From assembly GCA_013176395.1 (NCBI GenBank), contig JABMLP010000008.1:682001-746000 (forward strand): a DNA stretch of 64,000 bases, in the 5' to 3' direction. Each line of letters begins with the position of its first letter. Position 1 is the first letter of the stretch. Below, piece by piece: positions 13,665-35,962 of the stretch. The translations under genes were made by a program, and so were the position numbers. This DNA is from Venturia oleaginea. Its lineage: Eukaryota; Ascomycota; Dothideomycetes; Venturiales; Venturiaceae. The notes under the pieces were generated by a model. It searched no databases. It saw nothing but the letters and a program-made list of their open reading frames with translations, and was not told where the DNA came from.

Positions 13665-13802
13665 GGTCTTCTGGCCCAATGGCAAGGCGCTTGACTACGA
13701 TTTAACACGGTATCAAGAGATTGCAGGTTCAAGTACGTCAGGTTCGGGTTCTAAGCAGCAACGTAGGCGTGCTGACAAATCTCTCAGTCCCTGCGGAGAT
13801 CA
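13665..13802 (+). tRNA. tRNA-Arg(ACG), copy 1, with two introns
   Basis: Anticodon ACG at 13697-13699, loop C-T-A-C-G-A-A closed by CTTGA/TCAAG. Intron 1 (13701-13711, 11 nt) is at the standard 37/38 position. A second insert, 13733-13787 (55 nt), splits the T-loop after TTCAA. It starts GTACGT, has a branch-like GCTGAC and ends CTCTCAG. Without both inserts the gene is a 72-nt cloverleaf: acceptor GGTCTTC/GGAGATC with discriminator A, D-stem GCC/GGC, T-stem GCAGG/CCTGC and loop TTCAATC. A T5 run follows at about 13813-13817 as a Pol III terminator. The A-box (TGGCCCAATGG) is intact, but the B-box is cut by the second insert; another B-box-like GGTTCGGGTTC lies inside that insert. Confidence 0.85.
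13733..13787 (+). other. Spliceosomal-intron-like insert in the T-loop of tRNA-Arg copy 1
   Basis: 55 nt, GTACGT...GCTGAC...CTCTCAG. The branch-to-AG spacing and total length match the spliceosomal introns of the neighbouring protein genes. It has no sequence similarity to the inserts at the same site in copies 2 and 3 beyond the end motifs. Confidence 0.7.
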
Positions 13803-13939
13803 ACGACGAAAGTTTTTCAGTTCTTTTGCTTTCCATCCCTAGGCTGGTCATAGAAACATTCTTTTTTGCCGCGACAAACGCTCCAATCGCAGAGATCCAA
13901 CAGCAAAAACACCACATTACCCATCCAATCAATCGTTAC

Positions 13940-15452
13940 TCAAAACTCCATAGCATCCTCCTCCCTCTCCCGTTTAAAACTTTTCTCCTCCTTCAATAAT
14001 CCACAAACAAAAGCCTTGAAATAATCAACATAAGGCTTCAATTCCGTCTTCTCCCAATCCGGCATCTTCTTCTCCCCCGGCCTCGACCCCTCCATATCCA
14101 CATCCTCTTTCTTATGCTTCCTATCATACTCATCAATCTGCCCCAACAACTCCGTAACAGTCGGCACCTTGAAGGGATCAAAATCATCCAAGTTTCTCGT
14201 ATCAATAGGTACACAGATCCTCCCAGTACCGGGATGAACACAAAACGGGCTCTTCAGTAGATGGTTTAGTTTCTTGGAGACCTCGGCGTCGAGACGGGGG
14301 TAAGTGTATTCGAGGACGATTTCTTTTCTCGCGGCGACAATGGCTTTTGCGTCTTTTTGGTGTTTGAGGACTGTTTCGGCGACGGATTTGATGTCGGCCC
14401 ATTTTCTTTCGCTGGAGCGGCTGGGGGCGGAGTCCCATTTCTTTGCTAGGGCGTCGCGAAGGCCAGCGTCAGGAAGGCGTGTTAGGAGCTCTGTGGCTGG
14501 TTTGTCGTCTAGCCAGGGATCTTGGCCGTCGAGGATGTCGGCGTCGAAGTTGTTGATTAGAACACGGTAGCTGCGGCTGTTTCTTGTCAGTAGAGCTTTT
14601 GCAAGTTCGAATATGTAAAGACACTTACTCGATATGGGGATGCAGCAACTTTCTCGCGTGAAACTTTCTGCTACTTTTGTCTCCGCCCCGTAGCAATTCC
14701 AAGTAACCAGCAATTGCCCTCCTCTTCTTGTCATCCATGTCTCTGGCTTTCTTATCGCAGACCCAAGCGTGAGCACCACGACGTCCAGAGTAAACCCATA
14801 ATATATGTTTGAATCCAAAGTCCGCCCTCAAAGCTTTATCGATGACATCGATAGCCATAGGAATCCACCTCCAGCACAATTTACAGATCTTAGCACCAAT
14901 GCAACACGTTCTGATACCATCGTAATCCGTCAAATCGATATCGAAGACCAATTCTTTGCTCAAAGGTTTGAAAGCTGCCGACTTTCTCAACGTCTTCCGC
15001 TCGCGTGGATCCGAACTGTAGACAGGACCAATCTCGAAACGGGATGGGATCTGTGACATGCACTGTTTCCTCAGCGCATCTGCATCTTTAAACGACTGAT
15101 ATCTTAGATACGCGTCATTGGGGAGTGTAAAGGCGAATTCTCTGTTTGCGAAGTCGTTTGTAGGTATGGCGGCGTGGTGGTTCAGCCATTGGAAGAGGAA
15201 ACGGAAGGGAAAGAGGCGTTGGTAAAAGGCTCGCATTGTTTCTGGGTCTGCGGCGCCATTTCTCGAGGTTTGTATGGGTGCTTTGGGTGCTTGAGGTAGG
15301 CTGGAGGTGAACTCGTCGCTGTCGGAGTCGTCGTCGAAGAGGTCTTCCAGATTTGCTTTCGCGGCTTCGGTTGCTGGGACCTGAGCTGACTGGGGAGCAG
15401 CTGTTGGGAGGTCGACCTCCATGGAGGATTCTGGTGATTCTGTGTGAGGCAT
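13940..15452 (-). CDS. PRI1: DNA primase small (catalytic) subunit
   Basis: 486 aa from exons 14629-15452 and 13940-14576, with a 52-nt intron (14577-14628; GTAAGT, branch TACTGAC, acceptor AACAG). The first ATG in frame is at 15452. Residues 1-70 are an acidic, Ser/Pro-rich extension. The catalytic aspartates are in VFDIDLTDYD (Asp171 and Asp173). The zinc-binding cluster is CC at 183-184, C190 and C193. SGRRGAHAWVCD near residue 227 is the nucleotide-binding SGRRG motif of eukaryotic and archaeal PriS. With the large primase subunit and Pol alpha it makes RNA primers for replication. Divergent from the UPF0696 gene with 236 bp between starts. Confidence 0.97.
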
Positions 15453-15688
15453 CTTGTTGTTGTATGGAGTGTTGGATGCTGAGCTGCGTGTATTTGGTGT
15501 CTGTCTGTCCGACACGCGACGCGTCAAAGGCAATTTACTAGCGTGATGATTTCGGGATCCATTTTACTAGTACCCGTTTCGTCTCATCTTGGACAGAAGG
15601 CTAACTCCGGCAATCCAACAACACTGTGCTACCAATTATGTGAATCGCTTGTATGTACCATTGAGGGCCCCCATGGAAGGATGAAGGA
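15453..15688. promoter_or_regulatory. Shared divergent promoter region (PRI1 / UPF0696)
   Basis: 236 bp between two outward-facing ATGs. It contains ACGCG-type strings: GACACGCGACGCGTC at about 15510-15525 includes ACGCGT, the MCB/MBF (G1/S) motif known from fungal replication genes. The motif is seen; its function here is inferred. Confidence 0.45.
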
Positions 15689-16811
15689 ATGGAGCAACTC
15701 GGTTATGTCAGCGACGAGTCGGACTTCTATGGTAATCGCATCGTAACTTCCATGTTGACTCCAGCTAATCATCTCAGGTGATAGGGAGACACAGCGAAGA
15801 CTAAATCGGAAAGTGAGGGAGGTCGATGTGCATCGATACTGGGCTGATCACGCGCACCTCATCAATGTCATTGCCATCAACAACACCGTTCCAGAAAAGG
15901 ACAAACACATCACCCCGGAGGAAAAAGCATTGAACGTGATGCCAATCAAACTCGAACCCAAGATGGCTGCTACGCAAGAGCCGTACAACCCGTTGTCGCG
16001 TGTAGGATGGGCGAAACAGCTTGGAGAGACTCCCTCCGAGTTCATACGACGCGTCCCTCCACTCACCACTCTGACTTCAGACGGGTGGATATGGTGCGCA
16101 AACCCATACGCGCCCCGCGACAAGAAGCCCGACAATGTCGATGAGGCGTACCTTACTCGTATGAGACAGCTACTGGCCGCGTACATCGACAAGAAGACCC
16201 GAATCGCCCAGCAGAATCCGACCATGGCCCCTGGCACCATCACTAGGAGGTTGCTTCCGGATCGCGAACGTTTGAAGGACGAGATACATGAGGGCGCTAA
16301 GAAGGCCAACATGACTTGCGGGAAGGTAAAACTCCATTCATTCATCGAGCGTGTGGGCCGTGCTAACCAACTAAAGTGGATGCTGTTCCCAACCACAGAA
16401 GACATGCCAAAAGTCTGGCTCCAGGTCGTTGAGGCTGTCTCGGCAGGAAAGCTCGGTGTCATGGCCAAAGTTGCGACTGAGTGCAAGCCGGGTTCGAACG
16501 ATCGTCTGATCTGCATTTACACCGAGGACTTCACCGATGTTGTCGATGTGCGAAAACAACTCGAGATGATGGCTGACCTCCATCTCGTCCAGCGACAGGG
16601 AGGCCGTCCTACTTACTACAAGGCTGACGCTTACACCTACCTCGACATCTACAGCGACAATCCTTACGGCCTCAAAGCGTCCCAATACTCGAGTAAGGAC
16701 ATCTTTGCCATGCCCAAGACGAAGGCTAAGTCAGCAGAGTCCAAGCCACTGAAGAGACTCACAGACGGCGAGTTCTTCAAGACGAGAGAGTCGCCATTCA
16801 AGAAGCGCTGA
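15689..16811 (+). CDS. UPF0696/DUF1917 (C11orf68/BLES03-like) protein
   Basis: 358 aa from exons 15689-15731 and 15778-16811; the 46-nt intron 15732-15777 starts GTAATC, has branch GCTAATC and ends CTCAG. The short first exon reads MEQLGYVSDESDFYG and joins to DRETQRRLN, matching the usual start of fungal members. Later hallmarks are GWIWCANP, RLICIYTEDFTDV and YTYLDIYSDNPYGLKAS near the C-terminus. The fold is related to eIF4E-like cap-binding proteins; cellular role not established. The C-terminal tail is Lys-rich. Confidence 0.85.
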
Positions 16812-17554
16812 GCATATCGATGACATGTCTGAAACGAGTCTCGGTTCAAATTTGAAGCAATAAACACGTCTTGAAGGCCACAAGCTTCGTCAAGCCACCC
16901 GCCTTTGTACACTGAACGAGTCTAACTCTTGCAACGCAGTGGGTTGAAATTTGAAGCCAGACGACACCTATGCAAGATGATTACTCGGATTCATCACAAC
17001 ACTTAGATTGGTATGATATGATTTCAGCTGACGGATCTGGGGAATATGCTTGCCAGAATGATACGATAATCTAAGACTCTTGTATTGATACCAAGTAGAT
17101 GTGGAAATGCAATAATGATTTAGCGATGATTATTATAGTCATAGAAAATGTCGAGTCAGAGAGTGGTGACTTGAGTTGTGTGACTTGACTGACTTCCCTG
17201 CCTCGCCTGCTTCGTCTCCTTGTTCGGGCTCGGTTAAAAGTGGAACAAGATCTTCGACCTCTGAAAAAATATTAAAAATCCGGCACACGACCTTCACTTC
17301 ACTCCAACACATCGTCAATGCGACTTCACTTCGCCAAAATGTCCAAGCGCTGACTTCTTATTATCAGGAGTGCTACTGTCCCAGCCTCCTGCTTCAAAAT
17401 ATTTTCGGACACCACCTCCTTCACCTTCAAAGTCTGCATAGCGACATCAGAGATACCCACCATTGCATACACTTGGAATCTGGTATGGAAATGCATCATC
17501 ACTCTTTCAGGATGCATTGCTCACTAATAAGACCCTTTGGACCGACTTCTCATC
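16812..17554. other. Intergenic, no gene seen
   Basis: No recognisable coding frame. Likely 3' UTR of the UPF0696 gene and promoter of the next gene. An upstream exon of the next gene cannot be excluded. Confidence 0.35.
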
Positions 17555-18733
17555 ATGGCTCATCCACGACGTCTGACAAATGGCCCCGTCGCAACGTTTC
17601 ACTGGAACTCTCCAACGACTGGCCAGGGAAAGCCCGTCTTTGCACCAGCGGGAAGCTCTGTCGTCAACAAGTCCAGGACTGCGCCTCGTCCTTGCGGACG
17701 TGGACGACGATTCAAACCAGCGCGCTCAACTCGACCAACTCGAGACAATCCTCTCCCATTTCTCAAATTCCCAGCTGAAGTTCGAAACCAGATCTATGGC
17801 TATTTACTCACTTTTAAAGGAGATTTGATTCTTATGGACCATTACCACGCAGACAACGTTCGGCGCATCGGAAAAAGCTATGTTGGTAAGTCCAGGAATA
17901 AAGCAACAGTCGAATGGAGCTACGACGACGAGGGTAACTCAATTATGGTGGATAGTGATGAAATTCCGAGCTACACGAAGAAAGACCTCGCCTTCATCGA
18001 TCGATCTATCCTCCTTGTGAACAGGCAGATCTACAACGAGGCGCGAGGGGTCCTCCTAGCGACCAACACACTCAATGTCAGCCTCATCGAATTGGACGCC
18101 ATGAAACCAGCTCGTTGGGAGGCCATGTGCCACTTCACTCGCTTCGGCATTGGCATGGTCGATGAAGCCATGCCCACTATGGTCGATTTGCTCTGCTCCA
18201 CTCACTACGACCTGGTCAATGTCGGAATCACCATGATCATCCCGGGAGCCGAGCGCACCCGGTGCCAATACTGGGTCAAGCAGGTGAAAGAGTTGTTGGA
18301 GCCTTTGCGGGACCTGCATGTGAGAGGGCAAGTGCAATTCTCCTGGATCGATCGATACCTAGTTGATAACCCGGAGGTGAGGAGGGAAACGGTGGAGTGG
18401 CTCGAGAAGTTGGGCATGGACATGATGGGTGGGCCGGGCAACGGGAGTCGGATCGTGACAGGCGAGGAGAAGGATAAGGAGATGGAAGATAGACTTGCGG
18501 CCTATCATGCTTCTGCTATGGCCGCTACGACCGCTGCCTCATCGGTGACCGCGCCTACTCAGCCTGTTGCTGCGCCATTTTCAATTACGCCAGCCGTTAC
18601 TGCACCGACCATCTCTACATCACAAGCAATCGCTACACCATCGGCCACCCAACTACCAGCCATCCCAAAAACAGTCACTTTACCAGGTGTACCTACCACA
18701 GAGGACGACCCTGATGATGATATGAATCCATGA
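17555..18733 (+). CDS. 2EXR/F-box-like domain protein
   Basis: 392 aa from ATG 17555; the open frame extends a few codons upstream without another ATG. PLPFLKFPAEVRNQIYGYLL (about residues 68-87) is the F-box-like 2EXR start typical of large fungal families, followed by LLVNRQIYNEARGVLLATN, its second hallmark. The last 80 residues are Thr/Ala/Pro-rich low complexity ending in an acidic DDPDDDMNP. Function is unknown for the family. No introns are needed. Confidence 0.8.
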   Translation: MAHPRRLTNGPVATFHWNSPTTGQGKPVFAPAGSSVVNKSRTAPRPCGRGRRFKPARSTRPTRDNPLPFLKFPAEVRNQIYGYLLTFKGDLILMDHYHADNVRRIGKSYVGKSRNKATVEWSYDDEGNSIMVDSDEIPSYTKKDLAFIDRSILLVNRQIYNEARGVLLATNTLNVSLIELDAMKPARWEAMCHFTRFGIGMVDEAMPTMVDLLCSTHYDLVNVGITMIIPGAERTRCQYWVKQVKELLEPLRDLHVRGQVQFSWIDRYLVDNPEVRRETVEWLEKLGMDMMGGPGNGSRIVTGEEKDKEMEDRLAAYHASAMAATTAASSVTAPTQPVAAPFSITPAVTAPTISTSQAIATPSATQLPAIPKTVTLPGVPTTEDDPDDDMNP

Positions 18734-19450
18734 TGGCAACGGTTCGGGATGAGGATATTTGGACGGGAAAAGGACAGGGAATAGAAAAGGATACGAGCTG
18801 GAAAGCATGAGTTACGAAAAGCGTCAACAGAGGAAGAAAAGGGTCGGGAGCCCAACACGTTTTCACAAAATCAAGATACCCAAATCGCGCGTTGAAGACG
18901 ACTAGATTCTGGCACATTTAGCTAGCTAGCAGTATTAGAGTAGATATACTTTTAATCTCAATGACGAAGAGACTGAACTTCAATTTCAGTTTTCTCAAGT
19001 TATGATTTTGTGCCGTATTACTCTTGGCGAGCAGTTCCAGAATTGTTTTATCAATCTCTGAGGAGAAACACTGGAACTATTTGGATCGTTTGACTCTTTC
19101 CATCAAGCAAGTCTTGGAGTCTCGATCGAGCCTTGAACGGACCCGGTAAAATCATTACGGATTTTCAAAGATTACGAGACTTTATCTTGCTATAAGGATT
19201 CTCATTTGAGAGCCAACACACTCTTCTATATGGCCTGCTGCATACGAAGCAGCTGAAACGATACGATACGATGTACTGGCTATGGCAGGTACTTCGGCGC
19301 TGTCAAATCATGGGTCGACTAACATCACTCCTTCAGTACAATTACATGGTAAAGTTGCCTATTATACTACCCTGGACAGAGAACCTGTAGGGTCAGTTGA
19401 TCTGATCTTGATCTATTCACTCATCGTTGTGGACATTATAATATTTTATA
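18734..19450. other. Intergenic, no gene seen
   Basis: About 700 bp up to the TA target of pogo copy A. No recognisable coding or RNA gene. Confidence 0.35.
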
Positions 19451-21282
19451 ACGTATTCCACCATCGAGCGGGTCAAAAAGGCTTGGCACGACCAACTTTT
19501 GTTACGACTCTTCAATTTAATCGCTATCAACAATAGATTCTAAGTCCGTCGTGCTGCTATCTGATTCAGAAGATATCTCGATATCTTTTTTACAAGTTCG
19601 CGCATTATGCCCAGTTGCGCCGCAGTTCCTACAGCGCCGTTGAGTTGGTCGGGCTATTTCTTGACCACCACTACCACGAGCCTTCTTTGATCCCTGAGGC
19701 GCGACAGACGCCTCGGCAGCTACCTGCGCTGCTGCAGTCCCATACTCAATAGTACCACCTTGCTGGATCCACTTCCTTTTGCGCCATTTTCGCTTTGTCA
19801 TTACTGCCAATTGCTCTTCAAGCTCGCGGTTGCGCGCAACAAGTAGAGCGTTCTGGTGTAGCATCAATTCAGCGCCCTTGACAAGCTGGGAAAAGCCTGC
19901 CTGCGCAGTAACTGGTGACCGAGTAAAGGACTCGCTTACGAGCTTGGATTGGGATCCAAATTCAAGAGTATTGCTTGGAATCTTCGACTGCCACGGCGTC
20001 TCCTGCGGTGGGGGTGCTGGTGGGGTACGTAGCCGTACTTCAAGGCGATCCAATACCACCTCCGCGTTGATAGAGACTAGCCCTACCATCTCAAAAGCCT
20101 TTCGACAGTTCTCTTCTGTAAACACGTCGAAAAACGCGTCTTTGAAGGCTGGGAGGAAGCCTTCTTTGTTGATATGGTAGACGCGTCGGCGTGCCAAGTC
20201 TCGAACTCGTTGAGAGTACTTGCACTTCAACGGCGAGAAGCAGACCAAATCAAGCGGCTGGAGGATATGCGATGAATGAGGTGGCATACAGAGCGTTATG
20301 ATCTTATGTTCGAGGCAGTAGTCCTTGAAATCCTGGTTGAGATGGCTCTCATGGCCGTCCAAGATGAGCAGCCTATACCCTCCCACTTGACGCGCCTTTG
20401 TATACGCGTCAAAGTGCTTCAACCACTCAAGACCAAGCGCGTTGTTTGTCCAGCCGTTCTCAGAGACCGAGAGCTTCCAATTCCGTGGTATATCTGCCTC
20501 CTCATACCACGCAGAGATACGAACGCGTTCTTTGTAGATAATGAATGACAGGGTCGCATACCCAGCGGCGCAGATGCTCTGGATAACTGTAACCCACTCG
20601 CGATCGCCTGACTGGATCAAATTAGGCCGTGTACGTCTTTCAGAAGCTGTGACGACCTTCATTGACCCAATAACGCCCATCTGGAAGCCAATCTCGTCAA
20701 AGTTGTGCGTATCCTCGTTGTGGATGCCGTACTTTGCCTTAGTGTCTGCAACGAGCTTGAACCACGCGCCAATAATCTCTGGATCTTCCTATAGTATCCT
20801 CTGCCTATCCTTAGCTCGATTGAAGGCCATCTTGAGCTCATCTGAGTGCGTTATGAACCTCTCAGCCCAGTTTTTCCCTACTGGCTCTCCACCGCGTACA
20901 CCTAGTAGTTTATCCGCCATATCTGCCACCTCACACAGCCGGGGCGCGAATCCTCGCGAATCGAGGTCGAGGATGTATTGGAAAATTGTCTGCTCTTCAG
21001 TCGTAGTGAGCTTGTGCTAGGCGTTGCGAGTATCTAGGCGATACGTGATTCCGTTGTATCGGCTAGTCAATGTTGAAGGAGGTACATCAAACGCTTCAGC
21101 AGCGCGCCGGAGGCTTCGGAATTGGTGGGTATTGTAGGCAGAAAGGGCAAGCTGAATTCTGCCTTCTCTGTTAGATAATTGCGCATTTTGTTGTTGAGAC
21201 ATATCGTGTTAATGAGGGAGTTGGTCGTCTTGGCAGAAACTGACCAGCTCGGTGGGTTGACCAGCTCGGTGGTGGAACACAT
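19451..21282 (-). mobile_element. pogo/Fot1-type element, copy A (full length)
   Basis: 1832 bp flanked by TA (19449-19450 and 21283-21284). The left end is ACGTATTCCACCATCGAGCGG; the right end is the inverse with several changes (ATGTGTTCC...). It codes a DD35D transposase with a zinc knuckle on the minus strand. Nearly identical to copy B (51127-52975), so both derive from a recent common source. The right end of A is more mutated than that of B. Confidence 0.92.
19517..21202 (-). pseudogene. pogo/Fot1 transposase copy A, two premature stops
   Basis: Order from the start (ATG 21202): psq-type HTH (RSLRRAAEAFDVPPSTL); a stop TAG at 21017-21019; CENP-B-like second HTH (KNWAERFITRSDEL in copy B); a second stop TAG at 20790-20792 where copy B has CAG; DDE core with NFDEIGFQMG, LLILDGHESHL and QPLDLVCFSPLK (the three Asp); then a C-terminal coiled stretch and the zinc knuckle CRNCGATGHNARTC (C-X2-C-X4-H-X4-C). 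The CAG-to-TAG change is a CpA-to-TpA transition, the type made by repeat-induced point mutation. Catalytic residues remain. Confidence 0.88.
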
Positions 21283-22411
21283 TATTAATAATAATAATCG
21301 GATTTTACGTGGTATGTAATGGCTGCTGTGCCGTATACCTGCAACAACTATTTACAATTGCAAAAACCCAACTCTCGGGGATAAAAAAGCCTCTCGAATC
21401 TATCCTAAGCGGAATCTATACGGTAGGCGTTAGAGAACTAACAATGGTCCGGTCCCTTCTGTTACGGGGAACTCGTTTCTCAACACAGTTGATTATGTCC
21501 AGACCTTCTTGACACCTGTGTTCTCTTGTTCTGGTCCGCGGGTTTGGGGTAAGGGCAATATCAGCCTGGAAGTACTTACCTTAAGTACCTTCCCTTGCTC
21601 AGGTTCTTTGGAGGCTCACTAGATCCTAGCCGTCCGATGTATCTCCCAATTCAATTGTCGTCTAACCGATTTGATCCTCAGATCAATCCTGAACGCTTGT
21701 CGGTTAGTATGAAGGTTGGGGGTGGGCTTGCTTCGTATGCATATGACTTGTGCTTGATTGTATCTAAGTAAAAGGTCGTTACTGTAGTAGGTTGAAGAAG
21801 CTCCTATGTGAGAAACATAACATGAGATAACCACGAAGAGAGAAAGGAAAGTCCGTCCAACGTCCTCCCTATATACCCTTCTGGTTCTGGGTGCCAAGGT
21901 GTATTCCCACACCTCTTGGCCTTTTCCCACACTTCCCACAACTGTAAGCCTTGCCAAGACCTGTGGGAACTATGGGAATATCACGTGACTCCTGCACGTA
22001 CTATTCTCCTTTAGGACTGACTCCGTCGCACCAATAACTTCTTATCATCCAACCATTCTTTGCGAGTCCTGCCTTCCTGCTCTTCAGCCTTGAGGTGATC
22101 TGTAATACGAGGTACTCTCGAGGTTTATATCGTTATCTATTCGTAAGTATAGTCTATATTACTATCTCTTTCACTATGTACTAAGTTTCCTTAGTATAGT
22201 AGGTTGTATCGCCCCGCGGTATAGTAATACAGGTCCCTTACCGAACCTCTGCTGGGCAAACCACCACGCCGTGCTGTCTATTATCTGCGAAGACTGCGAT
22301 TGATTCCATCGGCTCTCCTATCTTCGTCGAGGACGAGATGAAAGGTTCGTAGCCTCCGCCTCGGACAGGCTGGAATTTCGACTTTGGCGGCCTTATAATG
22401 ATACTATAATA
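21283..22411. other. Spacer between pogo copies A and C, no gene seen
   Basis: 1.1 kb with no recognised protein. It may contain older repeat sequence, but I could not define ends or target duplications. Confidence 0.3.
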
Positions 22412-24433: not shown

Positions 24434-25213
24434 TCATAATATCCTCGCCGTCGTGATACCACCGCTGCTGAACCCAATGGCCACCTTGACATCGCCGGTC
24501 ATTTCTTCCACTGGCTCCCGGAAGCATTCTCCTGATTTGGCAGCCGCTGCACATTTTCTCTGTAGTTCGGGGATGAACTTATCGACTTGAAGAGAGGTCT
24601 GCACAATGTCAGCTATAAATCCTCTTTCTATCGCAGCAGTGTCTCTCTGATATTGGGTGATCGTCACGCGTCTACATGAGTAAACGACCAATATAAATAT
24701 ATATTCCGAGGAGTCATGAAAGCGCGATCGAGCCCCGTTTCTTGGAAGAGCTTGCTTACCTTCTGTCCTTTCTTTCCACACACTTGGAAAGTCTCGAAGA
24801 AATCCTTGCCCTGTATACGAAGACAGCCATCATTGTAGCTCAAAAGCCGATTAATCAATTGGCCCATGATCGGATCCGTGCTGGTTAGGCGATTGGAATC
24901 ACTTCGACGGTTGGCCCTGTATAGTAGCCGGTTACCTCTGTATTTCAGCGAGCAACGCCTGGGTCTCATCTCTCGGGCAGAGGGCGGTGTCGTGATCTTG
25001 AACATGCTCAATGTCGCCGTATGCGAGAAAGGGGATGACCTTTTGAAGCCTTATAGATACACCCAACGTCAAAGGGATGTGGTTTGTGCCAGCGTAGTCA
25101 TCGAATGGAAGTTTATAAAGTGGTTTCCCAAAAGAAAGGAGGTATTTGAAGATGGCCTCCCTCAATTCAGGTGGAATTCCCATCAAACTGGGCGTCGTCT
25201 CCGAATTTGACAT
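24434..25213 (-). CDS. Small F-box-like (2EXR-type) protein
   Basis: Predicted 203 aa from exons 24936-25213, 24760-24880 and 24434-24646. Intron 1 (24881-24935, 55 nt) has donor GTAACC and acceptor AACCAG; intron 2 (24647-24759, 113 nt) has donor GTAAGC and acceptor ATATCAG. Phases agree. The start ATG 25213 gives MSNSETTPSLMGIPPELREA, with the LMGIPPELREAIFKYLL F-box-like start at about residues 10-26. The rest shows no domain I know. Divergent from SLD5 with 160 bp between starts. Intron 1 has its only branch-like CTAAC unusually close to the AG, so that joint is the least certain. Confidence 0.6.
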
Positions 25214-26147: not shown

Positions 26148-26649
26148 ACTGGCATATATGTACATAGGTATATGGGCATAGGAAGGCGTTGTCGAAGCAT
26201 TTCAGGGGCGGTGGGGCATCGTAAAGCGCTTCGTGAGGAATTTGGTTTCACAGACGGAAGCGATGGGCGATGTACAGGACGAGAAATGGTTCATGTAACG
26301 GTAGACTAGAAGATACTATTTATACCACCATCTATAACGTTCGGGTTGCGAACGCTCTTCATAATAGTTCTGAACTGCTTATAGCCATACCAAATTGATG
26401 AGAACTCCAGCAAAGCTTTCAGAATTCGAACTGATCCCAATTCCTAAAGAAGGAACAACGTCAAAGAGTGGAAAGTTTGCAGTACTGACAATGACGCCGA
26501 CGCCAAAACTTTCTATTCCCCGCCAAAAATCGTAAAATACATATCAACAAGAGGATAAAAGGGTTCAAATACTTCTCATGAACAAAAGAGAACCATCATG
26601 TCGTGACCAGCAACGTAGGCATTGACGTACCAAACAAAAAGTTACCTTT
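26148..26649. other. Intergenic, no gene seen
   Basis: Contains the T5 run (26636-26640 read on the minus strand) that would end tRNA-Arg copy 2. No coding region recognised. Confidence 0.35.
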
Positions 26650-26780
26650 TGATCTCCGCAGGGACTTAATATATCATTAGCTTTGGAGTCATGCATTTAG
26701 TAGGCTCAACTTACTCGAACCTGCAATCTCTTGATTTCGTGTCATCGTAGTCAAGCGCCTTGCCATTGGGCCAGAAGACC
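26650..26780 (-). tRNA. tRNA-Arg(ACG), copy 2, with two introns
   Basis: Same 72 mature positions as copy 3, and one T-loop base different from copy 1. Anticodon ACG at 26746-26748 (minus strand). Intron 1 is 9 nt (26736-26744) at 37/38. The second insert, 26665-26714 (50 nt), splits the T-loop after TTCGA. It starts GTAAGT, has branch-like GCTAATG and ends TTAAG. Removal gives T-arm GCAGG-TTCGATC-CCTGC. TTTTT lies 10 nt downstream. The upstream 11-mer CTATTATCTTA is shared with copy 1. Confidence 0.87.
26665..26714 (-). other. Spliceosomal-intron-like insert in the T-loop of tRNA-Arg copy 2
   Basis: 50 nt with a perfect GTAAGT 5' end, GCTAATG about 10 nt before the terminal AAG, and no similarity to the copy 1 or copy 3 inserts outside the ends. 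Confidence 0.7.
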
Positions 26781-27621: not shown

Positions 27622-27932
27622 TGTTAAGGGATGGAATCCTTCTCTCTAGCTTATCCATGACTGGATTTCCAATTGTTCTCTTGTTATTCTGCAAGCTGTC
27701 ATGTTCTATTTTGCAAGCTGTCATGTTCTATTTCGCAAGCTGCCATGTTCTATTTCGCAAGCTGTCACGTTTCCATTTAAAGATACTTTCTAGAAGGATC
27801 TATTGTAAGAGGAGGATTATTTATACGAGCTATCCTTCCTGTATTTACACTTTCTTCTCTGTACTTAGATACTTTGAAATACAAGCAGTCTTCTCTCACT
27901 TGCGAAACACCTTTGAGGGTTGAACTCTTACA
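27622..27932 (+). repeat. Left LTR
   Basis: 311 bp. U3 holds four tandem units of about 22 bp (GCAAGCTGTCATGTTCTATTT-like, about 27691-27778). A TATA-like TTTATA is at 27820-27825, and GTACTTAGATA at 27861-27871 is a likely transcript 5' end. Confidence 0.93.
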
Positions 27933-27933
27933 T

Positions 27934-27944
27934 TATCTAAGTAC
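27934..27944 (+). promoter_or_regulatory. Primer-binding site, self-priming type
   Basis: TATCTAAGTAC one base after the LTR is the exact 11-nt complement of GTACTTAGATA at 27861-27871 inside the LTR, about 40 bp after the TATA box. This is the arrangement of Tf1/sushi-like elements that prime reverse transcription from the folded 5' end of their own RNA. The complementarity is seen; the priming mode is inferred. Confidence 0.6.
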
Positions 27945-27984
27945 CTCAATCTTACAAAGGAAGAAAGGCTCACAGAGAGCAAGC

Positions 27985-28330
27985 TCCAAAAAGGAATTTC
28001 AAGAAGAGGACACTTGTCCTAATCCAAGAAGCGAGGGCCAACCTCAAGGGCCAAACAGAAAGGAATTTCAAGAAGAGGACACTTGTCCTAACTCAAGAAG
28101 CAAGGGCCAACCTCAAAGGCCAACTTCAAGGGCCAACCTCAAGGGCCAACCTCAAGGGCCAAACAAAAAGGGAATTCAAGAGAATTCAAGCTGAGATTTT
28201 CTAGAAGGTGCTAGAATCTCCAAGAAGCAAGGGCCAACCGAAAGGGCCAATCCAAAAAGGGAATTCAAGAGAATTCAAACTGAGATTTTCTAGAACGTGC
28301 TGGAATCTCCAAGAAGCAAGGGCAGGTCAT
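27985..28330 (+). repeat. Leader-region direct repeats
   Basis: Imperfect repeats of GGAATTTCAAGAAGAGGACA-type units (two), AAGGGCCAACCTCAA-type units (about six) and a 60-bp block containing GAATTCAAGAGAATTCAA then CTGAGATTTTCTAGAA (two copies). They lie between the primer-binding site and gag, in the untranslated leader. Confidence 0.7.
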
Positions 28331-28608
28331 CCTAAGACAGCGTAGTCTTAGGAGTTGAAGCTGTAATAAGCTGAGGAAAGAAAGAGCTAGGAAGAGAGAT
28401 TTAATACACTTGGCCTTCACAGTCCCTGGGAGCTCTGTCCTTAGTAATAAGGATTGCAGAGCGGACTATAGTGTAAAAATCCTTCTGGGATTCTATAGTC
28501 ACCTTCCTATACTAATAGGCATTGACTCTATACTGCCTAGCAAATCTCTAGAGTAGAGCCTAGGAGTGTGTATAGTAGTGCTCTCTATTATCTCTCATAG
28601 GTGAAAAT

Positions 28609-29631
28609 ATGGAAGGAGAAGATCAGGAACAAAGAGTTCCTCAAGAACCCCAAGCCCTACAAGAAGCTATGGCAGCATTACAACATCAACTAGCCATTCA
28701 GAACGATGCTATTACGCGTATTCTTACAATCTTACCTAACACTACTCGCTCTGAGAACGTAGTAGAAGGACAAGAGACTAAGAATTCACAAAAAGACAGA
28801 ATACATAGGAAGAAAGCTGTACTTCCTAAGCTCCAAGAATTTGATGGCAAGCGTTCTGAATGGGCTCAGTGGTTTCAACAAGCAAGGATGAAGTTGGAGA
28901 TAGACGCAGAGTCTATAGGGGATAGTAGGAACCAATTTGCCTACATCTTCTCCTCTCTACGAGGCTCCGCAGCTCAGGCTACTCTGGCCTACGTAAAGAC
29001 AGCTCCAGAGGAAGATAAAACGGGACAGAAATTGTTACAGTATATGGACAACTTCTATGGCGATCCAGTACAACAACAAAGAGCTACTGTAAGCCTGTCC
29101 ACAATCAAACAAAAAGAGAAAGAACCCTTCTTCTCTTTTCTTCCCCGTTTTGAAACCACTCTTGCTAATGCTGGAGGAATGACTTGGCCTGACGCTGTTA
29201 AAATTGCATTTCTACACAAAGCAATAAATCAAGAGCTGCGAAACCAGAGAATAGGCCAATCTCAGAGTACCTCCTACCAGCAGTTTGTGTCCGATCTTTT
29301 GAATACAAGTATGCAAATCACTACAGCAAAGATGCTCTCTTCCTCAGAAGATAAGTTACGATTCAGAGATAAAGAGAAGTCTTTTAAAGATCTGAACGCT
29401 ATGGACTGGGAGCCTACACGCGTAAACAAGTTAAAAATTTCGTCTAAAGCCTATGAATATAGGAAGGCAAATAACCTCTGCTTACGCTGTGGGAAGGCCG
29501 GCCATAGAATGAAAGACTGCTGGTTGGATACAGAGGTAGAAAGAGTCACGCAACTTGGTTCAAAAAGGGCCAAAGGAACCACTGAGGAGAATGAAGAAGT
29601 TGAAGAAGAGGACTACTCGGAAAAAGAGTAG
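28609..29631 (+). CDS. gag: Retrotransposon Gag
   Basis: 340 aa from ATG 28609. A coiled-coil-prone N-terminus is followed by the retrotransposon gag capsid region (about residues 75-250, with WAQWFQQARMKL and FYGDPVQQQRAT), then a CCHC zinc knuckle CLRCGKAGHRMKDC (about 289-302) and an acidic tail ending EEDYSEKE. The stop TAG is at 29629-29631. Gag forms the particle and binds RNA. Its last 28 nt overlap the open pol frame. Confidence 0.93.
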   Translation: MEGEDQEQRVPQEPQALQEAMAALQHQLAIQNDAITRILTILPNTTRSENVVEGQETKNSQKDRIHRKKAVLPKLQEFDGKRSEWAQWFQQARMKLEIDAESIGDSRNQFAYIFSSLRGSAAQATLAYVKTAPEEDKTGQKLLQYMDNFYGDPVQQQRATVSLSTIKQKEKEPFFSFLPRFETTLANAGGMTWPDAVKIAFLHKAINQELRNQRIGQSQSTSYQQFVSDLLNTSMQITTAKMLSSSEDKLRFRDKEKSFKDLNAMDWEPTRVNKLKISSKAYEYRKANNLCLRCGKAGHRMKDCWLDTEVERVTQLGSKRAKGTTEENEEVEEEDYSEKE

Positions 29632-32600
29632 CCTCTATCCAAAGTCGTGGATGGAGGCGTAGAGTAGATAGAGCAAAATTGTCAAAGGAGTCAATTGAGA
29701 GAGTAAATAGTATTTTGAATTCGAACAAAGACACTGATTCACACCGTTCTCGGATAGAAAAAGAATGGGAGCAGTTCAGACCCAAGATGCTCTCCCGCCT
29801 TTTCTACACAAATACTATAGTGAACGATATATACTCTCTTAAAACTCTCCTTGATAATGGATCTAGCTGCTACGCATCAATAAACGAGGAGAAAGCTTCG
29901 CAGATGGACCTTGAAGTACTCCCTATTAGTCCGCGTACTATAGGTGGAGTTCTTAAGGAAGAAGGACAGACCCAAGTGACAAAAATTGCGAAGTTGAACC
30001 TAGATTTAGGGGGACTTATATGCAACGCTTTTGCTTATATAGTCCCGGGACAATTTGAGGATCTTCTACTAGGCAGGCCTTTTCTCAAGGACACCAAAGC
30101 CGTTATCAATGAATCTAAAGGTACTCTTACCTTTGCAAACGGGATTAGCATTCGCGATGCTAAATTTGAAGACAAACTTGATATACAACAAGTAGCGCCC
30201 GTAAGATTCCACCGCCTTGTCACTTCTACACTTGAGAAAATCAAAGACGCGTCTAGAGTATTTGCTGTTACTCTTCGAGATATTGATATTGCCTTGAAGC
30301 CGAAAGTCCCTTTGACAACAGAGCAAATACTGGAATTGCTACCTAAGAGGTTTCATAAGTACGCTGCTGTCTTTGATCCTAAAAGGGCCGAGAGACTACC
30401 ACCGCATCGCCCTGGGATTGATCACGAAATACCTATAGAAGAAGGAAAACCACTTCCTTGGGGACCTCTATATGGTATGGGTCGAGAACAACTCCTTGTT
30501 TTGCGAAGGACTCTTACAGAGCTACTAGATAAAGGCTTTATCCGAGAGAGTAAATCAGTTGCTGCGTCTCCAGTTCTCTTTGTGAAGAAACCAGGAGGGG
30601 GCTTACGCTTTTGCGTAGACTACCGAGCCTTAAACGCAATTACTCGAAAGGATAGGTACCCGCTACCGTTAGTAAAAGAGACTTTACTAACCTTAGCTCG
30701 TGCTAAGTATCTTAGTAAGCTTGATGTAAATGCTGCCTTCCACAAGATTCGAATCGCAACGGGAGATGAGTTCAAAACTGCCTTTCGAACTAGATATGGT
30801 CTATTTGAATGGCTAGTTACTCCCTTTGGCTTAACCGGTGCACCTGCGTCTTTTCAACGGTATATAAACTATATCCTTCGACGATACCTAGACGAGTTCT
30901 GCTCAGCTTATCTAGACGATATAGTAATATACTCTTCAAAGAACCTTAAAGACCATGAAGAAAAGACTGAAAAGATACTTCAAAGCTGCCTTAACGCTGG
31001 GTTATACCTTGATATTCGGAAGTGCGAGTTTAATACCAAACGAGTCAAGTATCTAGGCTTCGTTATAGATACTGAAACGGGCCTACACATGGATCCGGAG
31101 AAGATCAAAGCAATTAAAGAATGGGAACGTCCTACTACTCTACGAGGAGTACGTGGCTTCCTAGGCTTTACAAACTTCTACCGTGACTTTGTAAAAGATA
31201 ACTCAACAATAAGGGAGCCTCTGGTTCGCCTTACAAAGAAGAATACTCCATTTTTATGGGGAAAGGAGCAAGAAGAATCTTTTCAAAAACTTAAGGCAGA
31301 GTTTTGCAAAGAACCTGTCCTGTCTGCACTTGATGAAGATAAGCCTACGCGAGTAGAACCTGATGCTTCAGGCTGGGCTTCCGGAGCAGTACTTAGTCAA
31401 AAAGATGAGCTAGGTAACTGGAAACCATGTGCTTTCTTCTCTACTAAGCACTTGCCAGCCGAATGCAATTATGATATCCACGACAAAGAACTTATGGCTA
31501 TAGTCAAAGCTCTAGTCCATTGGACTAGCGAGCTACTAAGCCTAAGTAAGCCATTCATTATCCTCACAGATCACAAGAACCTTGAGAAGTTTATGGTAAA
31601 AAGGGAACTAAATGAAAGGCAAATGAGATGGGCGCAGATACTAGCTAAGTTTAACTTCAAACTAGGCTATCGCCCAGGCTCTGAATCTGTAGTTCCAGAC
31701 GCCTTAACTCGAAGGGATCAAGATCTCCCAAAGGATATTCAAGACCCAAGAATCGTTGAAAGAACTAGAACGTTATTACCTCCAAAGCTTTGGATTAACG
31801 TTCTAGAGGATAAGACTCCTGCAAGAGAAGAAGCTGCCCAAGAAAATGCTCAAGAAGTAGACAAAGAACCTATCCCCTTTATACAAAATCCCTTTCTCTC
31901 AGGTGATCTAAGGGATAGATGGGAAACTGCACTCGAAGGAGATCTAGACTACAGACGTATTTTCCAAAGCGTTCTAAAGCAAGATAGGCAGTTCCCATCT
32001 AAGCTAAAGGTTCCTACTTCTATAGGAGATTGTAAAGTCGAAAACAACCAGCTCTACTATAGAGACCGAATCTGGTTGCCCTCCTACGAGCCTCTCTTAA
32101 CAGGAGTAATTCAAGAAATACACGATTCAGTCCTATCAGGGCATCCTGGACGAGAAGCTACTATTGCTATTCTCTCCAGACAGTTCTACTGGCCGGGATT
32201 TGCTCAAGATATACGTCAGTTTATACGCAATTGTGACGTCTGCGGAAGAACTTCAGTCTGGCGAGACAAAAAGAAAGGTTTACTTAAACCTCTTCCTGTC
32301 CCTAGCCGTATCTGGCAAGATATTTCAGTAGACTTCATAGTCGAATTACCAGAGAGCCAAAGATGCACAAGACTCTGCGTTATTACTGACCGCTTGGGTA
32401 AAGGAACTATCCTGTTCCCAGTGCCTAAAGAACAGTTTGGAGCTGAAGGATTTGCAAAACTATTTATGCAGAACTACGTAAGATTACACTGGCTTCCTAG
32501 ATCTCTAGTCTCAGATAGGGACACGCAATTTGTTAATGCTTTCTGGAAAGAAGTTTGTCACCTTCTTAAGATAGAGAGAAGACTCTCTACAGCGTATCAC

Positions 32601-33464
32601 CCTGAGACTGATGGATCTACGGAAAGAAGAAATCAAGAAGTTGAAGCCTATCTACGTAAGTTCTGTACATTTAGTCAGGACGACTGGGTTGAGCTCCTGC
32701 CTATTGCTCAAATATGCCTCGATAATAGACCAAACCAAGCTACGGGCCTATCGCCTTTCTTCTTAACCCACGGTTATAACATTGAGCATATAGGAACTGT
32801 TGAAGCTCCCCAGAAAACCCCTGAGAATCCAAAAGAAAAAGCACAAGATCTTGTAGCAAAATTGAAGGACGCACAAGAATGGGCAGAAACGTCAATGGTA
32901 TCAGCTCAGCAACAGCAAGAATACTACTCTAATAGAGATCGTGCTCCGGCTGACTCTTTTAAAGTGGGAGACAAAGTCTGGCTCAACCTAAAGAACGTAA
33001 AAACCCTACGTCCTTGTAAGAAACTAGACTGGATTCATGGGAAGTATACAGTTACACGAGTTATCAACTCAATGTCTTACGAGCTTGATACACCCAGAGG
33101 AATCCACAACCGATTTCATACGTCTTTACTTAGGAGAGCTGGCACAGATCCCCTACCTTCACAAATACAAGATAATACACAGCCGCCTCCTATAGTAACT
33201 GAACAAGGAGACGAGGAATACGGTATCGAGGCTATTCTAGCCGCAAGATGGCGCCGGCGAGGTCGACAACAAACACGAGAAGTCTTAGTTAAGTGGGTAG
33301 GCTACGTTGATCCTACGTGGGAACCCCTTAGCGAACTCCAACAAACTACAGCTCTGGACGCTTTTGAAAGTGCCTACGGCAACGTTCTTGAAAACGACGG
33401 ACCTATACTACGCCCTCAGAGACTACGCTCACATCGATCTACAAGAGAGGGGGGGAGGGGATAA
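29604..33464 (+). CDS. pol: Retrotransposon Pol (PR-RT-RH-IN-chromodomain)
   Basis: The frame is open from 29604 to the stop at 33464 in the -1 frame relative to gag and has no ATG near its start, so it is probably made by -1 frameshifting. GGAAAAAG at 29619-29626, just before the gag stop, is the likely slip site. Domains (residues counted from 29679): protease active site LLDNGSS (about 53-60, DNG rather than DSG/DTG); reverse transcriptase with YRALNAI (about 312) and YLDD (about 409); RNase H with DASGWASG (about 563) and TDHKN; integrase zinc finger HHCC (about 814-855), Asp about 884, Asp about 945 and Glu about 980; chromodomain EAILAARW...VLVKWVGY...TWEPLSEL (about 1183-1225). The chromodomain is known to guide chromoviruses to heterochromatin. 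Confidence 0.94.
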   Translation, partial: RRGLLGKRVASIQSRGWRRRVDRAKLSKESIERVNSILNSNKDTDSHRSRIEKEWEQFRPKMLSRLFYTNTIVNDIYSLKTLLDNGSSCYASINEEKASQMDLEVLPISPRTIGGVLKEEGQTQVTKIAKLNLDLGGLICNAFAYIVPGQFEDLLLGRPFLKDTKAVINESKGTLTFANGISIRDAKFEDKLDIQQVAPVRFHRLVTSTLEKIKDASRVFAVTLRDIDIALKPKVPLTTEQILELLPKRFHKYAAVFDPKRAERLPPHRPGIDHEIPIEEGKPLPWGPLYGMGREQLLVLRRTLTELLDKGFIRESKSVAASPVLFVKKPGGGLRFCVDYRALNAITRKDRYPLPLVKETLLTLARAKYLSKLDVNAAFHKIRIATGDEFKTAFRTRYGLFEWLVTPFGLTGAPASFQRYINYILRRYLDEFCSAYLDDIVIYSSKNLKDHEEKTEKILQSCLNAGLYLDIRKCEFNTKRVKYLGFVIDTETGLHMDPEKIKAIKEWERPTTLRGVRGFLGFTNFYRDFVKDNSTIREPLVRLTKKNTPFLWGKEQEESFQKLKAEFCKEPVLSALDEDKPTRVEPDASGWASGAVLSQKDELGNWKPCAFFSTKHLPAECNYDIHDKELMAIVKALVHWTSELLSLSKPFIILTDHKNLEKFMVKRELNERQMRWAQILAKFNFKLGYRPGSESVVPDALTRRDQDLPKDIQDPRIVERTRTLLPPKLWINVLEDKTPAREEAAQENAQEVDKEPIPFIQNPFLSGDLRDRWETALEGDLDYRRIFQSVLKQDRQFPSKLKVPTSIGDCKVENNQLYYRDRIWLPSYEPLLTGVIQEIHDSVLSGHPGREATIAILSRQFYWPGFAQDIRQFIRNCDVCGRTSVWRDKKKGLLKPLPVPSRIWQDISVDFIVELPESQRCTRLCVITDRLGKGTILFPVPKEQFGAEGFAKLFMQNYVRLHWLPRSLVSDRDTQFVNAFWKEVCHLLKIERRLSTAYHPETDGSTERRNQEVEAYLRKFCTFSQDDWVELLPIAQICLDNRPNQATGLSPFFLTHGYNIEHIGTVEAPQKTPENPKEKAQDLVAKLKDAQEWAETSMVSAQQQQEYYSNRDRAPADSFKVGDKVWLNLKNVKTLRPCKKLDWIHGKYTVTRVINSMSYELDTPRGIHNRFHTSLLRRAGTDPLPSQIQDNTQPPPIVTEQGDEEYGIEAILAARWRRRGRQQTREVLVKWVGYVDPTWEPLSELQQTTALDAFESAYGNVLENDGPILRPQRLRSHRSTREGGRG

Positions 33465-33775
33465 TGTTAAGGGATGGAATCCTTCTCTCTAGCTTATCCA
33501 TGACTGGATTTCCAATTGTTCTCTTGTTATTCTGCAAGCTGTCATGTTCTATTTTGCAAGCTGTCATGTTCTATTTCGCAAGCTGCCATGTTCTATTTCG
33601 CAAGCTGTCACGTTTCCATTTAAAGATACTTTCTAGAAGGATCTATTGTAAGAGGAGGATTATTTATACGAGCTATCCTTCCTGTATTTACACTTTCTTC
33701 TCTGTACTTAGATACTTTGAAATACAAGCAGTCTTCTCTCACTTGCGAAACACCTTTGAGGGTTGAACTCTTACA
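33465..33775 (+). repeat. Right LTR
   Basis: 311 bp, identical by eye to the left LTR, followed by the ATTAC duplication. The pol stop is immediately before it (pol ends at 33464). Confidence 0.93.
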
Positions 33776-33780
33776 ATTAC

Positions 33781-34480
33781 CCCGATAGATCTTTACAAAT
33801 GCGACAGGACTAGTTCGAAAAATCCTCTATATATCTTCATTCGCCTAGAAAGTTAGTTGCTATTGATGTATCCTCTAGAATGTTCTATAAATATCTCAAC
33901 ATCACCTCCTTCAGCTTCTTTCTTTCTATAACCTCTACAATACCTTTAGAATAACATTCACCAATTCGCCAGTTTACGGTTTGGCTGTTCGAGATCTCCA
34001 AGATAAAGCCTTTCGCTGACTCATAGTGTACCCAACTCACTAATCCATTTCTTCATCACCTCTCGATTGAACTCACCAACCCCTTAATCCCCCCATCTTA
34101 TATCTTTCAGCTATTCGCCAAATCGACTCTCCACCAATTCACCTAGTCAGGCTTCAGGTATGATCTCGACTAGAGCAAACAAACAACTTAGCTAATTTGT
34201 CTCTAGCGGCCAACATGCTCCCAGAATGGAAATGAGATCGAACGAATAAGGGCGACTGGTGGTCGTATTCAAATTCAGAACTTTCGCGAAGATACACAAA
34301 GTGGTTGCTGCTCACCAAGCCGAGCATAAGCGCGACATGTACTTCCAGGCCAATTTCGAGCAGCTTTTGAAGCCAGTGAAAAGCTCAAGCCAGTACAGTA
34401 AGTTTTTGTGATCTAAGCATCATTCAATGATTCAATTTTGACACTCATGTAGAATGAATTCTGCGAGGAGCTTATCCGCA
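33781..34480. other. Intergenic, no supported gene
   Basis: AT-rich sequence right of the retrotransposon. A GTAAGT...TAG intron-like stretch at about 34400-34452 does not join open frames. Confidence 0.3.
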
Positions 34481-34997
34481 AGACAAGAAAGTCAAAGACG
34501 ACATAACAACGTTCCGCCGCTGGTTCGACGATAAACATGACGACGACGATTATGGGGAAGCCATGGAGACGTTGAGACTCGGACTATCCATGCTCCTCGA
34601 CGGCGATGAAAAACCGGGCTATCAAGTTCAAGCGCCAATTCCCACCATGGAGCACTCATTCGAAGTATCGGACCACCGGATGAGACATGCTTCATGGATG
34701 CTTGAAGACCAACTTTGCGATACTGAGCAGATATCAGATTGTCTCAATTTGGCGACACGATTACCACGAACATCGGCCAGCATCGAGTCTGTCACGAAGG
34801 CTCTCAGTCGACTCAATCCAGAAGGGCCCGCTCAGTGGGATCGATGTTTCTCTCCTGCTGAGGGGTGGATCGGGTGTCCGACCGGCGGTTATCCCACGAA
34901 GCATGTTCTTGTGTCGACTTCTTCCAAACATATGACTTCTTCCAACTCAAGACCGCGTGTCAGGAAATCTCTAAGGGAAGAACCAGAGAAGAATTGA
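34481..34997 (+). pseudogene. Unrecognised coding-like stretch, no usable start
   Basis: A frame open from about 34455 to the TGA at 34995-34997 (includes ATG 34563, 144 aa from there) reads VKDDITTFRRWFDDKHDDDD, then ETLRLGLSMLLDGDE and DHRMRHASWMLEDQLCD. The open region continues upstream of its first ATG and is cut by a TGA, and no splice acceptor joins it to an upstream exon. Probably part of a broken or unrecognised gene. No family assigned. Confidence 0.3.
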
Positions 34998-35460
34998 GCT
35001 CAATCACGCTCATGAAAACTCTGGAATAAAAGTTTTCGCGAAGCTCGGCTGGGCCAGTCTTGCACAAAACTGGTGTGGCAGCAAGAAGGAGTTAAAGAAA
35101 CATAATGGAAGCGGGCAAGAACATGACTTGTAATATACAGCGATCAACAAAACTGAGGAGTTATTTGCTTGTTACGCAGTGCTTCACCATTGCGTCATTA
35201 CAAACGACTCAATCATGTGGAAGTCGAGTTACCGACATAGTGGTGGTAAACATTCATTGTTGAGAAGAATCCAAAGATAGATGCAGACCATGTGGCTGAA
35301 ATTGGCTGCGGAACCACAGCCTTGTACAGAACCCACAAATACCAACCCCACCATTTCTTGACCTCCTTGTGAGATTATTGCTTTAAAAGAATGCTGTCGA
35401 CCTTCTAATCATTCCCGACTACATTAATTGCGTGCTTCATTCTGCTGTAGACAGATAGAA
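34998..35460. other. Intergenic, no gene seen
   Basis: Nothing recognisable between the unassigned stretch and the tRNA half-relic. Confidence 0.3.
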
Positions 35461-35496
35461 TCGTAGTCAAACGCCTTCCCATTGGGCCAGTTTGCC
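35461..35496 (-). pseudogene. tRNA-Arg 5'-half relic
   Basis: Matches the first 36 positions of the nearby tRNA-Arg(ACG) genes (CTGGCCCAATGG A-box region and GACTACGA anticodon region). It has a changed acceptor strand (GGCAAAC) and anticodon stem (GTTTGA). No matching 3' half follows. Confidence 0.6.
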
Positions 35497-35827
35497 TTGT
35501 TTTTTAAATGATAGTTGTAGATACGGTTGGCTTCGTTGATGTTATGGCGGGGACGAGGAGATTTCCTTTGGGGGCAAACATCAAATTGAATAGTCACAAG
35601 AAGCAAAAAGATGGAAAGATGGAAATATTTGCCTACTATTTGTAATAGGGTTGGATGGAGGTGAAAACGCTATTCGAGGCTGAACTTGTTTTTAGTTCAC
35701 AAACAAACGCCAACACTCCAAGACGTACAGCACAGTAGGGAGGGAGACGAAAAGAGAGTAAAAAGGATGATTCCTATGACCAACGTAAAACTCGAAAGGG
35801 GTCGAACAAAAATGAAACTTCTACTTC

Positions 35828-35962
35828 TGATCTCCGCAGGGACTTGAAACTTGTGAGTGCGTGTTTATTGATATCGAAGAAGTGTACTTACTCGAACCTG
35901 CAATCTCTTGATGGGCTTATTATAAGTCGTAGTCAAGCGCCTTGCCATTGGGCCAGAAGACC
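35828..35962 (-). tRNA. tRNA-Arg(ACG), copy 3, with two introns
   Basis: All 72 mature positions equal those of copy 2. Anticodon ACG at 35928-35930 (minus strand). Intron 1 is 14 nt (35913-35926) at 37/38. The second insert, 35843-35891 (49 nt), splits the T-loop after TTCGA; it starts GTAAGT and ends TTTCAAG. TTTTT for Pol III termination lies about 16 nt downstream (35808-35812). The insert and flanks differ from copies 1 and 2. Confidence 0.87.
35843..35891 (-). other. Spliceosomal-intron-like insert in the T-loop of tRNA-Arg copy 3
   Basis: 49 nt, GTAAGT...CACTCAC...TTTCAAG. The branch-like motif is weaker than in copies 1 and 2. Confidence 0.65.

Follow-up and report, generated by a model that had tools for sequence, protein, structure and literature searches.

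Three tRNA-Arg(ACG) genes of a Venturia genome with probable spliceosomal introns in the T-loop

Interrupted tRNA genes in the window and across the genome

We found three genes for one tRNA-Arg(ACG) in a 64,000-nt stretch of the Venturia oleaginea contig JABMLP010000008.1 (the window, to whose positions all gene and insert coordinates in Table 1 refer). Each of these genes is interrupted twice, by a short intron at site 37/38 and by a longer GT...AG insert at site 58/59 in the T-loop, and the latter is the subject of this report. Without these interruptions the three genes yield the same mature tRNA of 71 nt plus the discriminator A, and the only difference among these 72 positions lies at T-loop base 57. 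All three T-loop inserts directly follow TTCRA, begin with GTACGT or GTAAGT, and end with CAG, AAG and AAG. Upon re-reading of the positions, the preliminary description of these genes proved accurate in its coordinates, in the sharing of all cloverleaf positions except one T-loop base, in the lengths and placement of both kinds of interruption, and in the starts and ends of the T-loop inserts. The branch motifs that it had noted in copies 1 and 2 are also present, and copy 3 has one as well. Standard annotation passes over these genes: neither ARAGORN nor Rfam at E 5 reported any tRNA in the window, and all three copies were missed by both.

Table 1. Parts of the three tRNA-Arg(ACG) genes, and protein-gene introns used as reference, in window positions.
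Feature	Position	Strand	Length (nt)	Branch-like motif (distance of its A from the end, nt)	Remark
tRNA-Arg(ACG) copy 1	13665..13802	+			including discriminator A; spliced form is tRNA-Arg(acg) by ARAGORN
Copy 1, 37/38 intron	13701..13711	+	11
Copy 1, 58/59 GT...AG insert	13733..13787	+	55	CTGAC (12)
Copy 1, TTTTT	13813..13817	+			likely Pol III terminator
tRNA-Arg(ACG) copy 2	26650..26780	-			including discriminator A; spliced form is a tRNA by ARAGORN, anticodon misplaced
Copy 2, 37/38 intron	26736..26744	-	9
Copy 2, 58/59 GT...AG insert	26665..26714	-	50	CTAAT (12)
Copy 2, TTTTT	26636..26640	-			likely Pol III terminator
tRNA-Arg(ACG) copy 3	35828..35962	-			including discriminator A; spliced form is tRNA-Arg(acg) by ARAGORN
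Copy 3, 37/38 intron	35913..35926	-	14
Copy 3, 58/59 GT...AG insert	35843..35891	-	49	CTCAC (11)
Copy 3, TTTTT	35808..35812	-			likely Pol III terminator
DNA primase small-subunit gene, intron	14577..14628	-	52	CTGAC (10)	reference
PDAT gene, intron	39629..39686	+	58	CTGAT (13)	reference
CorA-type transporter gene, intron 1	54060..54190	+	131	CTAAT (10)	reference
CorA-type transporter gene, intron 2	56261..56315	+	55	CTAAT (13)	reference

The same arrangement was seen in every tRNA-Arg(ACG) gene that we found in the genome (46.08 Mb assembled in 61 contigs, to which all genome-wide copy counts refer). The 36-nt 5' half of the tRNA has six matches, each free of mismatches where up to three were permitted, and all six genes carry the 58/59 insert. 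One of them, on contig C14, equals window copy 3 with identity across 3,036 nt, which leaves five distinct genes; the identical stretches (L009, C14:1146140-1149175; L013, C60:716427-719462) may go back to a recent duplication, or to overlapping contigs in the assembly. The preliminary description had held that many uninterrupted tRNA-Arg(ACG) genes elsewhere in the genome, together with an absence of joined RNA, would speak against function. No uninterrupted gene was found: the uninterrupted 28-nt T-arm has no genome match at three mismatches, and BLAST of the fully spliced sequence to E 10 returned these six genes only, with no alignment extending past base 57 of the 71-base query. In viral and prokaryote sequence collections, an exact 28-base tRNA pattern had no match. 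The tRNA decodes CGU, CGC and CGA via inosine at base 34, and these three codons account for 134 of the 265 arginine codons in eight stretches of the window, whose gene models are provisional.

Inserts of the same type are present in four other isoacceptors, Arg(TCT), Ser(AGA), Ser(GCT) and Gly(CCC), which were traced from long matches of a generic tRNA search (63 of its 1,697 candidates were scored). Both Arg(TCT) copies found with up to three mismatches are interrupted at 53/54, three of five Ser(AGA) copies at 52/53, and the single Gly(CCC) copy found at 52/53, there by 89 nt. Ser(GCT) has five genome matches, of which L084, L153 and L055 were read. The first two have an insert at 52/53 and L055 has none. 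A fourth match, at C23:503759, probably holds a 53-nt insert, judging from the spacing of two pattern matches, and the fifth is C5:1338789. L153 (C15:899733-900184) contains a second GT...AG insert, of 52 nt, in its anticodon stem, at a place where the paralogue L055 has no interruption, and the inserts are therefore not bound to one site of the tRNA. More tRNA positions may carry inserts than our T-arm patterns could detect, as this doubly interrupted gene suggests.

Two sequence patterns were also matched to the genome. HAGGTTCRANTC has 94 matches, of which 50 were read, each being tested in spliced and in unspliced form. Three were called tRNA, namely the interrupted Gly(CCC) gene (L137), a Ser(GCT) gene (L153) and the uninterrupted L147, compared with none of 50 when the flanks were shuffled. 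The other 44 matches comprise five nuclear tRNA genes that had already been read, four matches on contig C38, which in our judgement is mitochondrial from its tRNA set, one match in the window, where no tRNA was recognised by eye, and 34 unread matches. The sensitivity of this splice test is incomplete, since L111, by eye an uninterrupted Ser(CGA) gene, escaped it. Among the 65 matches of GGTTCRAGTRNG, six are the Arg(ACG) genes, 30 were tested without yielding a tRNA call, and 29 are unread. Both patterns are blind to inserts at other positions and to B boxes of differing sequence.

Splice signals of the inserts and of reference introns

The inserts read amount to 14 distinct ones in 13 distinct genes, 13 of them in the T-arm and one in the anticodon stem. 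Every insert starts with GT and ends with AG. The donor has A at +3 and G at +5 in 13 inserts each, and reads GTRNG in 12 and GTRNGT in nine, while the base at acceptor position -3 is A in six, T in five and C in three. Insert length is 49-57 nt, with a single exception of 89 nt. A CTNAY motif that places its branch A 11-12 nt before the insert end is found in 11 of the 14 (shuffle mean 0.30, with a maximum of 4 in 20,000 shuffles), and the count rises to 13 if the branch A may lie anywhere between 6 and 35 nt from the end, a figure that 5,000 shuffles, with a mean of 3.8, never reached. The inserts thus combine two features of U2-type introns: First, they have GT...AG ends with an extended donor. 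Second, their branch site lies at a fixed short distance from the acceptor. By these sequence criteria we class them as spliceosomal introns, the excision of which is predicted.

Closely similar introns reside in U6 small nuclear RNA genes of the same genome. U6 has seven genome matches, four uninterrupted, one short, and two with inserts (L101, C12:1178091-1178250; L102, C36:59841-60006). These two inserts, of 52 and 58 nt, follow the scheme GTAAGT...CTAAC...CAG, their branch-like A being 12 nt from the end, and they occupy different U6 sites. A U6atac match in the window (24693-24781, minus strand) is weak, with 22 bits compared to a gathering score of 33, and probably due to chance.

The protein-gene reference is a small set, consisting of the four introns of the window listed in Table 1. 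According to the preliminary description, the T-loop inserts equal the introns of neighbouring protein genes in length and motifs; this holds for the overall build, whereas many acceptors depart from it, as detailed below. The proteins encoded by these genes place the DNA in or beside Venturia (Venturiales, Dothideomycetes): the CorA-type transporter scores 91% against V. effusa and 90% against V. inaequalis, the primase small subunit 93% against V. inaequalis, and PDAT 92% against V. nashicola. Introner-like elements of Dothideomycetes, the same class of fungi, are a possible source of new spliceosomal introns. We set aside a recent spread of the tRNA inserts as elements of this kind, since 0.36 Mb of examined sequence contains no near-copies of them, except for one 19-nt match, and thus no sign of recent multiplication.

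Gene function and a possible processing route

The five distinct Arg(ACG) genes have a mature identity of 0.99-1.00 amid sequence that is largely unrelated. Mean identity is 0.57 among their T-loop inserts (0.48 shuffled), 0.45 among their 37/38 introns (0.45 shuffled), 0.52 upstream (0.53 shuffled) and 0.58 downstream (0.50 shuffled). The earlier statement that the inserts differ completely is nearly right, yet it overlooks the small excess over the shuffled value and a best pair of 0.68. A constant mature tRNA, accompanied by drifting introns that keep their splice signals, is the pattern expected of functional spliced genes, and the values agree with the selection on function that had been proposed from the kept mature positions. 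Canonical tRNAs are restored by removal of the inserts, as had also been claimed: ARAGORN called 13 of 13 genes after removal, two of them with a misplaced anticodon, and two of 13 before. Better evidence on the junction comes from a pair of Ser(AGA) genes. Interrupted L107 minus its insert equals uninterrupted L108 over all 81 mature bases, which would fix the junction except for a few bases that are ambiguous where exon and intron ends repeat.

Candidate signals for RNA polymerase III (Pol III) are present, though with B-box bases lost at two of the three T-arm sites (see below). The A box is standard by eye in the interrupted genes, and none of the 13 T-arm inserts splits the TTCRA of the B box. 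Where the insert lies at 52/53, the intron AG precedes GTTCRANTC and so recreates the B box. A run of at least four T follows all 13 interrupted genes and starts no more than 32 nt from the 3' end; in L104 it begins with the last two tRNA bases. Shuffled trailers gave such runs in 5.4 of 13 cases on average and never in all 13 (0 of 5,000), and random 37-nt stretches of the examined loci did so in 13%. It is suggestive that the insert sites fit what the promoter tolerates, with perhaps five independent insertions by our own estimate.

We consider it very probable, as far as the DNA itself can tell, that the T-loop inserts represent genuine spliceosomal introns of the mRNA type, located in functional nuclear Pol III tRNA genes. 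The preliminary description had already named the spliceosome as a possible route for the Arg(ACG) inserts, and this reading is the best supported, given that like signals recur in four further isoacceptors and at different tRNA positions, as well as in two U6 genes. Pol III would transcribe each gene with both introns, using the A box, a readable B box and the T-run terminator. The spliceosome would then remove the GT-AG intron and restore the T-arm. RNase P and tRNase Z could trim the pre-tRNA once it is folded, and the ordinary tRNA splicing endonuclease (SEN) would cut out the 37/38 intron. Spliceosomal removal should come first, because SEN, RNase P and tRNase Z rely on a folded tRNA body. 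Inserts at 52/53, 53/54 and 58/59 may be tolerated by the promoter, as TTCRA stays whole and the intron AG or GT replaces the bordering B-box bases.

It had been left open whether the spliced molecule is a transcript of RNA polymerase II (Pol II). In that case the inserts would still be spliceosomal, and the working RNA would be a Pol II read-through transcript instead of a Pol III gene product, in keeping with the general knowledge that spliceosomes normally act on Pol II RNA. The T-runs behind 13 of 13 genes and the unsplit TTCRA argue for a Pol III transcript, which would be spliced as in fission-yeast U6, and make a Pol II origin unneeded; furthermore, the upstream flanks are unrelated. 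U6, which is likewise transcribed by Pol III, contains introns of this kind both in the present genome and in fission yeast (PMC8917221). We therefore regard a Pol II read-through origin as extremely improbable.

Cleavage by SEN was considered as an alternative to the spliceosome. The inserts would then be ectopic tRNA introns like those of Archaea and Cyanidioschyzon, with GT, AG and the branch motif present by chance. Two matches to SEN catalytic domains do exist in the genome, and T-arm introns, including some at 53/54, are known from Archaea and the red alga (PMC4090602, PMC9602550). However, the branch spacing in 11 of 14 inserts is not a product of chance, and identical signals occur in U6 and protein introns. 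A central helix like that of the bulge-helix-bulge (BHB) motif cut by SEN-type enzymes was found in none of 13 inserts, with 1.7 expected, in a simplified test that is weak on its own. BHB introns were set aside on this result, and so was a special precursor folding, as the stability of the three window pre-tRNAs does not exceed that of shuffled sequences. The SEN alternative thus appears very unlikely, and we return to spliceosomal introns in Pol III genes.

Several observations weigh against this interpretation. Three of the 14 inserts deviate in branch spacing: the branch A lies at 15 nt in the Arg(TCT) copy L105 and at 18 nt in Gly(CCC), and the only CTNAY of the anticodon-stem insert is 41 nt from its end, although a TTAAT has its A at 10 nt. 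Six inserts end with AAG, compared with three CAG and one TAG in the protein introns. ARAGORN also accepts many junctions shifted by 1-2 nt and hence does not fix the junction, and the BHB test, with its low expectation, contributes little to the rejection of SEN. The B box is not left entirely untouched: inserts at 53/54 alter G52, although no other base of it, and those at 58/59 keep GGTTCRA and let the intron GT fill positions 59-60 at the cost of the conserved C61. Individual genes raise doubts, too, as L105 has an A at position 33 and the interrupted Ser(AGA) gene L110 looks decayed by eye. Finally, the interrupted Ser(AGA) and Ser(GCT) genes might be dispensable, since both isoacceptors have uninterrupted copies (two of the five Ser(AGA) genes, and L055 for Ser(GCT)).

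The last two of these points could indicate that no tRNA is made from the interrupted genes, which would then be pseudogenes or copies that simply bear an insert. According to a review, T-arm insertions of most eukaryotes affect a single gene among many synonymous ones and are taken as a mark of pseudogenes (PMC4090602). Individual Ser or Arg(TCT) copies could have such a status, which is hard to hold for Arg(ACG), where no uninterrupted gene was found although half of the arginine codons counted above call for this tRNA, and where the mature sequence and the splice signals of drifting inserts have been kept. No uninterrupted copy was found for Arg(TCT) (2/2 interrupted) or Gly(CCC) (1/1) either. 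As a full answer for Arg(ACG), pseudogenes were set aside on account of these genome-wide counts, and overall we rate this explanation as very improbable.

We think it likely that, in this fungal lineage, the essential tRNA-Arg(ACG), and probably also Arg(TCT) and Gly(CCC), cannot be supplied at all without the spliceosome. A single Pol III transcript would be served in sequence by two unrelated machines, with the spliceosome acting in the T-arm or the anticodon stem and SEN in the anticodon loop, and translation capacity would be tied to mRNA splicing. New tRNA introns would persist only where the B box survives.

Known systems, implications and surroundings

In the textbook view, the spliceosome serves mRNA, and an endonuclease and a ligase serve tRNA. 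U6 acts within the spliceosome, which is held to explain its introns, and these occur in fungi besides fission yeast. The U6 gene of Schizosaccharomyces pombe contains an mRNA-type intron in a Pol III RNA that is removed by the spliceosome (PMC8917221). The tRNA inserts resemble it as short GT-AG introns of an essential Pol III RNA, and the two interrupted U6 genes of the present genome are alike in this respect. Unlike U6, tRNA has no link to the spliceosome, the inserts affect several isoacceptors, and the genes have an additional SEN-type intron. Spliceosomal introns of about 57 nt have also been described from the rDNA of lichen fungi (PMC8527467), likewise in an ascomycete RNA that is not made by Pol II, with the difference that the host is a Pol I rRNA and not a tRNA.

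The rule in the preliminary description, that eukaryotic nuclear tRNA introns sit at 37/38, holds with exceptions in nucleomorphs and Cyanidioschyzon (PMC4090602). Ectopic tRNA introns of Archaea and Cyanidioschyzon are linked to SEN-type enzymes and BHB motifs (PMC4090602, PMC9602550), and those of a nucleomorph measure 3-24 nt, with a removal route described as unknown (PMC4090602). These systems share with our genes the location in T-arm and anticodon stem and the presence of several introns per gene. In contrast, the inserts described here have GT, a branch site and AG, and lack BHB by the simplified test. Splicing of tRNA is presented as spliceosome-independent in a review from 2026 on unusual splicing (PMC13149111), and among the papers listed from the open-licence literature we found no description of spliceosomal introns in tRNA genes. 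The novelty would thus lie in the class of host gene, tRNA.

If our interpretation is correct, spliceosomal introns have settled in a class of essential Pol III RNA, whose supply is thereby made dependent on mRNA splicing. How introns are gained, how the spliceosome reaches Pol III transcripts and in which order tRNAs mature would become directly testable. As ARAGORN and Rfam missed the genes of the window, other genomes with seemingly missing tRNAs may hide similarly interrupted ones.

Mobile elements surround the tRNA genes of the window. A gag/pol pair of LTR-retrotransposon type lies at 28609-33464 (plus strand; the gag part by a Gag-like match, pol judged by eye), and the reading frames at 19517-20680 and 51210-52622 (both minus strand) are nearly identical to each other, one of them matching a DDE_1 transposase. 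Elsewhere in the genome, L085 (C19:646150-646550) and L086 (C60:820650-821050) contain the same weak tRNA-like sequence, which scores 35.7 bits and is not called by ARAGORN. Their flanks are near-identical and one of them lies at the very end of C19, so that they look like a decayed tRNA in duplicated sequence. The AT-rich contig C58 (18,945 nt) is perhaps a mitochondrial plasmid; tRNA-Arg(tcg) was called on it twice, in opposite directions, as L057 (28.4% GC) and L058.

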